Source: Candidatus Borrarchaeota archaeon
GTDB taxonomy: Archaea; Asgardarchaeota; Sifarchaeia; Borrarchaeales; Borrarchaeaceae
DNA length: 35,114 nt
Assembly (NCBI GenBank): GCA_016840315.1
Contig: JAEOSO010000005.1
Span: 1-35,114 of the forward strand
Direction: 5' to 3'
Below the pieces are notes generated by a model. It was not told where the DNA came from. It saw nothing but the letters and a program-made list of their open reading frames with translations, and did no database searches. Positions 27,404 to 34,437 of the stretch are shown here, one piece after another; the first letter of the stretch is position 1, and each line of letters starts with the position of its first letter. Made by a program: the position numbers and the translations under genes.

Positions 27404-27462
27404 CTTTTCATTCTCCTTTTCAATTCATAGAAATTGTTTTCTTTAAAGGTTATATATAAAGG

Positions 27463-27483
27463 AGCACCCTGCGTAAGGGAGCT
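27463..27483 (-). other. Second hairpin in the selenoprotein-gene 3' UTR (possible terminator or SECIS accessory)
   Basis: Minus strand AGC-T-CCCT-TACGC-AGGG-T-GCT (7 bp with one T/T mismatch), followed by CCTTTATATATA. Confidence 0.45.
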
Positions 27484-27484
27484 A

Positions 27485-27530
27485 GTCCTTCTCTCAGTCC
27501 CATTGGGTTTCCCAAGAGAATTCATTCCAA
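27485..27530 (-). promoter_or_regulatory. Candidate SECIS element (eukaryote-like form-2 fold) in the 3' UTR of the hdrA-mvhD gene
   Basis: Minus strand: TTGGA ATGAA [TTCTCTTGG] GAAA [CCC AAT GGG] A [CTGAGAGAA] GGAC. A 9-bp helix (two G-U wobbles), tandem G.A/A.G-capable core, unpaired AAA, apical 3-bp mini-hairpin. Basal helix is weak. Confidence 0.65.
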
Positions 27531-30500
27531 TTAAGATTCTATTATCCGCGACGGATTGGGCCCAAGTTTGGACACGTTTTTGCCAAAGGATTGCATTGCT
27601 TCTCTAAACTTTTCTGCTTCTGCAGATGACAAGAAGTACATAGCAACTCGTGAGTCACCGAGACCAAGAACTTCGAGTAATTTATTAGCTAATTCAACAG
27701 ATCGTTCAGCCATCAAGTTTCCGTCGATATAATCGCAATCGCCCTTGTGTCATCCAACTACTGCAACGCCATCAGCGCCTTGTGAAAGCGCATTTAAAAT
27801 CCAAGCTGTGTCAACTCGACCAGTACAAGGTACGCGTATTATACGTACACGGTGATCATATTGGAGTTTTGATAGACCAGCCAGATCCGCTGCACCGTAT
27901 CCACACTTTTCACAAGCGAAAACTAGCAATAATGATTTGCGACTCTGGAGCATAGCTTCAATTTGCGGATAAAATTGTTCATCGCGCCAGTATCGAAGTT
28001 CTCTTGCACTAGAAGGACACGCTGCGACACACATACCGCAGCCTTTGCATTCTATTTCATCAGTAGCCGAAACAAGTTTTCCTTCTTCTTTTTCTTCCAG
28101 ATATATTGCGTCGTATGGGCAAGCAGCAACACAAATGGCGCAACCACTACAGAGATCTTGGTCACAAACTGCTTTAATAAGTTCAAGTTGTAGTTCTTTT
28201 TGTCGTAAGAGTACTCCTGATGCCGAAGCAGCAGCCTTACCTAGGGCTATTGAGTCACCTATACTTCGAGGTGAAAGAATTGCTCCAGCGAGATAGATGC
28301 CATCCTTTCTTGTTTCGACAGGCTTAAACTTGATATGAACTGGCTCTATAAAGCCATCAGCCGATCGAGTAACACCAGTCATCTTGCACATATCTTCGAA
28401 ATCTTCAGGTGGTTCCTGTCCAACTGCTAACACTACATAATCTGCGTCGATTTCAAACGCTGTTCTTGACAGAGTGTCATATACTTGAACAACGACATTT
28501 CCATCTTGTCCCTCACTAACGACGGGAGGTTTATCTTCGATCCACCGCATAAAGTTAGTTCGATACTTTTTCCGTGTGGTTAGATAGAACTCCTCCATAT
28601 AACGACCTGCAGGTCGTAAGTCCTCTTTATAGAGAATGAATGTTTGACATTCAGGGAAGAGTTCTTTCACTGCTTGCGCATTTTTCATTGAAGCGCCGCA
28701 ACAAACACGAGAACAATGTACGTTTCCATCTTTTTCCCTTGAACCGACACACTGAATAAAAACTACGCGCTTTGGATCTGGATTTATTGATTTGTCTTTC
28801 AGCATTTGTTCGAATTCAAGTGAGGTTACAACATCCTTAATAGAATTGTAACCATATTCTCCTTCATTAGGCGTGTATATTTTTGTTCCGACTGCTAAGA
28901 TTATAGCGCCAACGTTTACAGCGACTTCTGCGCCATTCTTTGTCCTGATTTGTGCAAGGAAGTTACCAATATGTCCGTCAAGAGATGCTAACGATGCTTC
29001 AAGGTAAATCGAGATATTAGTAGACTGGAGTATCTGAGAAGTTAGTTCGTCTACAATTTGATCGGCTTCGACAAGTTCCGGTGCAATTTTGTAGAGAGAG
29101 TTTAAACGTCCACCAAGTTGTGCTTCCTTTTCAATGATGTGAACATTGAACCTTTGTTGCGATAAATCAAGAGCGGTTGACATTCCGGCTATACCGCCCC
29201 CAATTACTAAGGCCTCATTGATTACCTCTACTGTCCGGTAGGGAACGATTTCAAGATGTAAGGCACGTGAGATGCCAGCTCTGATTAAATCTTTTGCCTT
29301 TTCTGTGGCTTCTTCCGGTGTCTGCATATGCACCTGGGAACTCTGATCTCTAAGATTCACCATCTCGAACAGATATTTATTCAAGCCTGCCTCCTCTACC
29401 GCTTGGCGAAAAGTCGGTTCGTGTAGTAAAGGAGAGCATGATGCAACGATCACTCTATTTAGATTATTTCCCTTGATTGCTTCCTTAATGTCTGCTTGTC
29501 CAGGTTCACTGCAGAAGAATTGATCTTGAGCTGCGTAAACAACGTTAGGCAGTGTTTTTACATAGTCTATAACTTCGGGTACATCAGTGTAATTAGAAAT
29601 GTTACCACCACAATGACATACAAAAACGCCAAGTCTTGTTTCGCCAGAAATATCCAACTCTGTCTCTGGTACTGACGGTTTAATATACGGGGGACGACTA
29701 TCTAGAAAACTTATCGCTGACGAAGCCGCAGCTCTTGCCTGAGTGACTGTATCTACCGCATCTTTTGAACCAGTTGCTACTCCTGCCAAAAAGATTCCTG
29801 GTTGGGACGTTTCAATCGGATGATAACTATTTAGCTGCTTAGGAAATCCGTCCACACCTAAATCAATCCCTAAGAGGTTGCACAGATCAATCGTTCCTTT
29901 AGAAGGAACAAATGAGCAATTTAGGACAACTAGAGCGATATCTCTAATTTCTGAGATTTCTCCAGTGTCGGTATCTTCATTCCAGACAATTAGATTTCTT
30001 GTTTCAGCGTTTTCTTGTATTTCTGCAACCTTTCCACGTACGAAATTCACATCATATTTCTCTTTAGTCTGTCTATAGTATTCTTCGTAGAGTTTTCCAG
30101 TAGTACGCATATCAATATAGCAAATATCTGCTTTTCCCTCATTTACTTGGAGTCTATATGCTCTAGCCTGTTTTAATGCCCACATGCAGCAAACTCTATT
30201 ACAGAATTCATTGCCTTCTTTAGCACTTCTAGAACCTACGCATTGAACCCAGAGAATACTTTGTGGTACATTTCCATCAGATGGCCTCACTATTTTACCA
30301 GTGCTCGGTCCTGTAGGATGAAGTAAACGCTCATATTGAAGCGATGTAATGACATTTGGGTAGATTCCGTAACCAAAGTGCTTTAATTGACTTGGATCGA
30401 ATTCATCAAATCCAGTAGCCATTACTATAGAACCAACTTGAATCTCAAAACTCGTTTCTTTTTCATCAAAGTTAACCGCGTCTGCAGGGCAGATTTTTTG

Positions 30501-31025
30501 ACAAATCTGGCAGATTCCGTATTTGAAGTAAAGGCAATGGGCTGAATCAATTTTGTACACAAGCGGAACTGCTTGTGGAAATGGCACATATATAGCACTT
30601 TTGTTATCAAAAGATTCATTGTATTCATTTGGCGTCTTTATTGGACAATTCTGAGTACATAAACCGCATCCTGTGCATTTCTCTTCATTGACATAGCGCG
30701 GGTTTCGCTTTATCTTAACCTTCCAGTTTCCTGGATAACCTGAGATTGATTCTATCTCAGATAAGGTTAATACATTGATGTTTTCCGTTCGTGCAACATT
30801 TGCCATTAACGGAGCGAGAGGTCACGCCGAACATTCGTCTGTAGGAAATATTTTGTAGATTTGGCTGTATCGTCCACCAATTGTTTCTTGCTTTTCCACC
30901 AAAAATGCAGTGTACCCTTGATTCGCAATGTCTAGCGAGGCATACATTCCAGCCATACCGCCGCCGATAACTAGTATTGAAGTACTGGGATCACTTGTAA
31001 CCTTTTCATTTTCCAATGCATTCAT
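27531..31025 (-). CDS. Selenoprotein HdrA-HdrA'-MvhD fusion with two UGA-encoded Sec residues (complements 30822-30824 and 27750-27752)
   Basis: Track ORFs 30822-31025, 27750-30806 and 27531-27716 share one frame (3495 nt = 1164 codons + stop). Junctions read FPTDECSA-UGA-PLAPLMANVAR and GADGVAVVG-UGA-HKGDCDYIDGN, where HdrA and MvhD families have Cys. Multiple CxxCxxCxxxCP clusters, two FAD GGGxAGM motifs, AGGAGG upstream of the ATG. Confidence 0.9.
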
Positions 31026-33880: not shown

Positions 33881-34096
33881 ATCCGCAAGAGAAATTTTAA
33901 AGCCTCCTTTTCTTAATGCTCCCTCTATCTAATTTGGTGTTAACTTTCCGTTTTTATTCGCCTCAAACTAATACCGAGTATTAGTCGCTGAAAGTTATAA
34001 ATGTTCCAATATGACAATTTATCGTAGTGCGCGCTCGAATGATTCAATTTATAAATTGTAAGTGATATAAAACTCCTCTACTATCTATCGAGATCG

Positions 34097-34437
34097 TCAA
34101 CTACCCCACCCAAAGGGTAGGGGCTTGTTCAAAACACAAGTCCCTTAGTTGATTAGAGGGCTTCTCAGGTATGTGAGATGCAGTAGTTGTTTAGGTTATG
34201 ACACCCTGGGGTGTTCCACTAGCCCCCTGCTCTGTCGTCGGTGGTTAAAAGTTCTGAGGGGTAGGAACGGTGCTGCCGATGTAAAAAGCCTTTACAACAG
34301 CCTCGAAGTGGACTTACGCCTTGGTGTTGGGCGGACGGGACTTGCGAGTTCCCGTTATTACAACACCACAATGTCTCTATTAAGAAAAGAACCGCAATTC
34401 CTCTCCCCGCTAAAGCTGGGGAGTTCCTTGCGGTGGA
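34097..34437 (+). mobile_element. TnpB-less IS200/IS605-like element (left-end hairpin plus omegaRNA/right-end-like stem-loop; MITE/PATE-like)
   Basis: 5' hairpin CCCC-ACCC-AAA-GGGT-A-GGGG, then CTTGT..ACAAG (34102-34140). 3' nested stem CCGCAA...CTCCCC-GC-TAAA-GC-T-GGGGAG...TTGCGG (34392-34433). No convincing protein between them. Confidence 0.6.

Follow-up and report, generated by a model that had tools for sequence, protein, structure and literature searches.

In eukaryotes, SBP2 and eEFSec read the core and the adenine bulge of the SECIS element; to our knowledge, no SECIS-binding factors are known from archaea. Eukaryote-like SECIS elements of Asgard hdrA/frhD genes were reportedly described by Mariotti in 2016. 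Published reports of such elements, which the first-pass annotation of this locus had mentioned for Lokiarchaeota, do cover the hdrA/frhD genes of Asgard archaea (PMC11227280; PMC9723677) and include Sifarchaeia/Borrarchaeales with G[U/G]AAA apices (PMC11227280). The Asgard type II eSECIS-like model is a two-stem model with an upper stem of 7-15 bp, a mini-stem of 2-8 bp, a bulge of 4-12 nt and an apical loop of 2-6 nt; no highly conserved nucleotides are reported around it, and the second hairpin described below (P3) is not mentioned (PMC11227280). The vhuD elements are known to have a eukaryote-type core (PMC11227280), and SBP2 is reported as not found in archaea and as absent from Asgard archaea (PMC11227280; PMC9723677). 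Both As of the GAA motif are required in Methanococcus maripaludis, where the SECIS of a lokiarchaeal vhuU did not function (PMC11881835).

A probable SECIS element behind an hdrA-frhD fusion gene

We analysed a stretch of 35,114 nt (hereafter the window), which is contig C129 in a genome of 1.70 Mb and 77% completeness. On its minus strand a gene with an in-frame UGA is followed directly by a 70-nt element, which is very probably the SECIS of an HdrA-FrhD selenoprotein gene, with the UGA read as selenocysteine, in an Asgard archaeon that belongs to the genus Ca. Borrarchaeum or stands close beside it. The features referred to below are:

27534..30806 (-), hdrA-frhD (FlpD/MvhD/VhuD) fusion ORF, 1091 aa with TGA taken as selenocysteine
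27750..27752 (-), in-frame UGA, predicted selenocysteine 1019, motif VVG-U-HKGDC; the same codon is TGA in the congeners G001 and G003
27531..27533 (-), UAA stop of hdrA-frhD
27461-27530 (-), whole candidate SECIS element, 70 nt, including the second hairpin P3
27482..27530 (-), stem under the kink-turn, UUGG 27530-27527 / CUAG 27485-27482, 3-4 bp, two of them G-U
27522..27526 (-), kink-turn-like core, 5' half, A-AUGA; AUGA is invariant in 18 other Asgard elements
27489..27520 (-), P2 stem and apex; stem of 9 bp, UUCUCUUGG (27520-27512) / CUGAGAGAA (27497-27489), from the minimum-energy fold and covariation in relatives
27498..27511 (-), apex; GAAA bulge 27511-27508 opposite A 27498, mini-helix CCC-AAU-GGG 27507-27499, from the methanogen-model alignment and the congeners
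27485..27488 (-), core, 3' half, G-GA-C; [G/A]A followed by C in 93 of 98 elements
27465..27481 (-), P3 hairpin CUCCCU-UACGC-AGGGUG, with one U.U mismatch and GC at the loop end

The fusion protein contains an FlpD domain (PF02662, aa 961-1082) together with Fer4 and FAD/NAD domains. The nearest genomes bearing the fusion are those of Ca. Borrarchaeum yapensis and B. weybense (FlpD identity 79-81%). The gene, the TGA and the SECIS fold are all retained in two congeners, in which the apical loops differ (mini-helices CCC-UUUA-GGG and CCC-UUUC-GGG) and the stop codon is the UGA within the AUGA motif of the SECIS. In the window the element occupies the 3' UTR directly after the UAA, ~225 nt downstream of the UGA at 27752-27750.

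The window genome encodes the selenocysteine synthase SepSecS. A tRNA-Sec, PSTK and a Sec-encoding selD were not found in this 77%-complete genome; PSTK and a Sec-encoding selD are present in the congeners. The Rfam tRNA-Sec search gave no match in the window genome and, in the congeners, only matches under the family cut-off. A tRNA-Sec has been reported for B. weybense isolate lw60_2018_gm2_56 (PMC9723677).

The 9-bp helix, bulge, mini-helix and core are present exactly where the first-pass annotation had placed them. Two of its measurements needed adjustment: the AUGA (27525-27522) does lie just 3' of the UAA, at a distance of 5 nt rather than 4, and the interval 27485-27530 holds the stem and the core, while the element runs ~24 nt further 3', to 27461, and includes P3. 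The weak basal helix given earlier as the main caveat is real, in that the helix under the core has only 3-4 bp before P3 begins; the expected lower helix is largely replaced by P3. The pairs of this lower stem differ as U-A, U-G and C-G across the three Borrarchaeum copies, and UUGG/CUAG overlaps a possible longer P3.

Folded as a 70-nt RNA, the element has P2 with the mini-helix plus the second hairpin as its minimum-energy structure (-19.5 kcal/mol). A longer, 106-nt piece favours a different pairing, with a stability no greater than that of shuffled sequences (z -0.66), and the evidence for the element is therefore comparative and not thermodynamic.

Conservation and covariation in relatives

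The first-pass annotation had made its proposal hinge on conservation of the core and AAA bulge, and on covariation of the helix, in related genes. MAFFT alignments mixing different P3 lengths put the core or P3 in the wrong place, and an alignment of 18 Asgard elements (A5) was used instead. The AUGA_GA core and the A-rich bulge are conserved, the conserved columns being G-x-AUGA, AAA atop the stem and AC past the core, and the helix covaries: 97.9% of P2 cells are paired, with changes on both sides in all eight pairs. Covariation over the whole structure scores 0.63; shuffles give 0.25, and sliding the structure along the alignment gives no more than 0.18. Below the core there are only 2-4 bp; the first G-C pair occurs in 18/18 elements and the next pairs are variable. 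The short lower stem, [A/G]AU as a bulge of 3 nt and the tandem G.A pairs are together arranged as in a kink-turn.

We searched with two covariance models. The Asgard model (R1) was built from 18 frhD/hdrA elements, of which two belong to Borrarchaeum frhD genes and the remaining 16 come from other families; the window and fusion copies were left out. It finds the element as the sole significant match in the 35-kb window (26.2 bits, E 8.4e-6; runner-up 7.5 bits) and has matches in 22 of 59 Asgard genomes. A second SECIS in the window genome lies on contig C134 (L110), behind an ordinary two-UGA frhD. The methanogen model (R2) was built from eight methanogen-type vhuD elements (Methanocaldococcus and Methanothermococcus, with one from an archaeon without a genus name). 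It scores the element at 39.2 bits (E 1.6e-8; runner-up in the window 5.5 bits), the only match in the whole window genome. The SECIS identity proposed in the first pass is thus borne out by both models.

R2 gives 37.5 and 39.4 bits for the congeners, 41-43 for Methanopyri, and at most 24 bits or no match for the other Asgard elements tested. Among 232 Asgard genomes only four have matches, three being the Borrarchaeum fusion copies and the fourth a weaker Jordarchaeal vhuU (28.5 bits). This specificity across Asgard archaea assigns the window copy to the methanogen vhuD type. Both apex types are present in one Borrarchaeum genome.

Comparison with the described SECIS types

The window element shares with the Methanococcales vhuD SECIS (Methanothermococcus, Methanocaldococcus) the [A/G]UGA_[G/A]A motif at the stem base (here AUGA_GA), a 9-bp stem, a GAA_A bulge between G-C pairs, the three consecutive S-S pairs over the bulge (CCC/GGG in the window, G001 and G003) and a P3 past the core. 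It differs from them in an extra bulge A (GAAA_A, in all three fusion copies), weaker stem pairs, the lack of a clear outer helix (P1, see below) and its host gene, an Asgard hdrA-frhD fusion. Its likeness to the Asgard eSECIS-like hdrA/frhD elements (PMC11227280) lies in AUGA_GA, the adenine bulge, the 3' UTR site, a stop codon overlapping AUGA (in the congeners) and the R1 score; most of those elements, however, lack the CCC/GGG mini-helix and are hardly scored by R2. With eukaryotic SECIS of form 2 it has in common the AUGA_GA quartet, an unpaired run of As and an apical mini-helix.

This last likeness was the basis of the first-pass assignment to a eukaryote-like, form-2-shaped SECIS. The part that concerns the core stands: AU precedes the 5'-GA_[G/A]A-3' motif (AUGA 27525-27522, GA 27487-27486), and the AAA bulge is there. 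The tip, in contrast, is of the methanogen kind, a GAA_A bulge plus three C-G pairs. A purely eukaryote-like element, with AUGA_GA quartet, AAA bulge, apical mini-helix and ordinary lower helix, would explain the invariant core bases in relatives and the agreement with every limit of the Asgard type II model (PMC11227280), the stem being 9 bp, the mini-stem 3 bp, the bulge 5 nt counted as GAAA + A, and the loop 3 nt. We nevertheless consider it unlikely, since the methanogen model outscores the model of ordinary Asgard elements (39.2 vs 26.2 bits), P3 takes the place of an ordinary lower helix, and the Rfam eukaryotic SECIS families have no match in the window, either at the gathering threshold or at E<=10.

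We class the element as a SECIS of the methanogen vhuD type that has a eukaryote-type core, within a broader junction-type class of archaeal SECIS. With the methanogen vhuD SECIS as its closest known kin, eukaryote-type and methanogen-type recognition features would be combined in one RNA. As to a possible lateral acquisition of the gene from methanogens, the FlpD tree has no supported grouping of the Borrarchaeum fusion with methanogens (long branch, 84/44); the topology of this tree does not separate an ancestral from a transferred methanogen-like apex.

A second hairpin and an outer helix in related elements

A structure-seeking parse covered 98 of 102 Asgard and methanogen elements, with the core AUGA_GA in 76 and AUGA_AA in 22. 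P3 starts 1-4 nt past the core in 94 of the 98, has at least 4 bp in 85, and has a loop with GC or GU in 92. P2 and P3 are enclosed by an outer helix, P1, with 5 bp or more in 78 of the 98; examples from Asgard archaea are CUGCUGC/GCGGCAG, GUAGGCUU/AAGCCUAC and GUUGGCUU/AAGCCAAU, and Methanocaldococcus has GCCGGAGA/UCUCCGGC. Because the parse favours helices, shuffle and swap controls were applied. The P3 score is 12.3, compared with 7.7 (sd 0.34) in dinucleotide shuffles, and its pairs covary (37 cells changed on both sides, against 9.5). For P1 the score is 14.1; exchanging the 3' flanks among elements gives 10.4 (sd 0.34). Most Asgard and Methanococcales elements are, on this comparative evidence, predicted three-way junctions with covarying helices, P1 closing around P2 and P3. 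We found no description of the second hairpin or the junction in the archaeal SECIS papers compared, a set that covered work other than that of Mariotti (2016).

No clear P1 can be made out in the window or the other Borrarchaeum fusion copies (n=3), where the best window candidates score no better than the swapped-pair mean. The window P3 by itself is not significant, 20% of shuffles reaching its score; its assignment, which we make provisionally, rests on the congeners, which keep the hairpin with U-A in place of the U.U mismatch, and on the wider kin.

Two other readings of P3 were weighed. The first takes P3 as an independent neighbour and P2 alone as the functional unit. The M. maripaludis fruA SECIS keeps its function after truncation to the KTL hairpin (PMC11881835), so that some genes may do without P3, and two Methanopyri vhuD elements (L145, L187) are without P3. 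The regular placement of P3 1-4 nt past the core, its GC or GU loop, the covariation of its pairs and the covarying P1 that encloses it in most elements all speak against independence, and we hold this reading possible but doubtful. The second takes the pair of hairpins mainly as a transcription terminator or a stabiliser of the mRNA 3' end, with the likeness to a SECIS secondary. The window has UUUAUAUAU right after P3, as a terminator might. In most relatives, however, P1 pairs across P3, so that transcription must pass P3; moreover, the AUGA, AA and GA core bases are conserved and the elements lie behind TGA-bearing genes. This makes a primary role in termination or stabilisation highly improbable.

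Several elements show variants of this architecture. In the two Methanopyri elements, which have AUGA_GA and GAA_A, the lower helix (GGCGG/CCGCC) follows directly, giving two stems as in the eukaryotic form. In selD 3' UTRs (L207, L208, L212), inspected by eye, P1 (UAAUGAUGAC/GUCAUCAUUA in L212), AUGA_GA, a longer linker and P3 can be discerned, the latter with a GC or GU loop (CCACC-AAUGC-AGGUGG); R1 gives these elements no score despite the visible P1/P2/P3 layout. A Methanothermococcus vhuU SECIS (L151:5979-6044) is without AUGA, yet it too has a hairpin behind it, whose loop is UAUGC.

Proposed mechanism and wider bearing

In the mechanism we propose for the SECIS reading, the 3' UTR RNA would fold into a kink-turn-like base (AUGA_GA), the GAAA/A bulge and the CCC/GGG tip, followed by P3. 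A kink-turn-binding protein of the L7Ae/L30e family, together with an archaeal EFSec, may read the core and the adenine bulge in the manner of SBP2 and eEFSec, perhaps with P3 as well. The bound factors would hold Sec-tRNA ready, and ribosomes would then decode the UGA at 27752-27750 as selenocysteine. P3 might serve as a further contact or as a brace.

The locus bears on how the eukaryotic selenocysteine signal arose from an archaeal one, as eukaryotic AUGA_GA and methanogen GAA_A, signatures that are supposed to be unrelated, appear in one Asgard RNA. A wider proposal strikes us as evenly balanced between true and false: the ancestral archaeal SECIS would have been a three-way junction of P2 with AUGA_GA/AAA (in the vhuD type also a GAA_A apex), P3 with a GC loop, and P1 around both; eukaryotic SECIS would have arisen once P3 was lost, and in archaea P3 would serve the selenocysteine machinery as a binding site that has gone unnoticed. 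The conserved hairpin and outer helix from the wider comparison offer a definite target for mutation. Should P3 prove important, it may also bear on the failure of the lokiarchaeal SECIS in Methanococcus, depending on the ends of the construct.

Other observations

In Lokiarchaeia, loci L217-L231 (for example G048:C12:3643-3834, plus strand) encode tiny one-helix membrane proteins of about 61-75 aa with one in-frame UGA and the pattern MPLK...TM...GGG-U-[PL]-x. They superficially resemble eukaryotic SELENOK/SELENOS. These proteins match no Pfam family and are absent from the seven Asgard selenoprotein families of PMC11227280. They have matches in about 30 of the 66 genomes of one lokiarchaeal family, and an R1 SECIS stands behind all 15 of the loci fetched (44.9-51.8 bits). 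The window itself, an Asgard archaeal contig, also carries a HEARO RNA (RF02033, 128.7 bits) at 34096-34317 on the plus strand.
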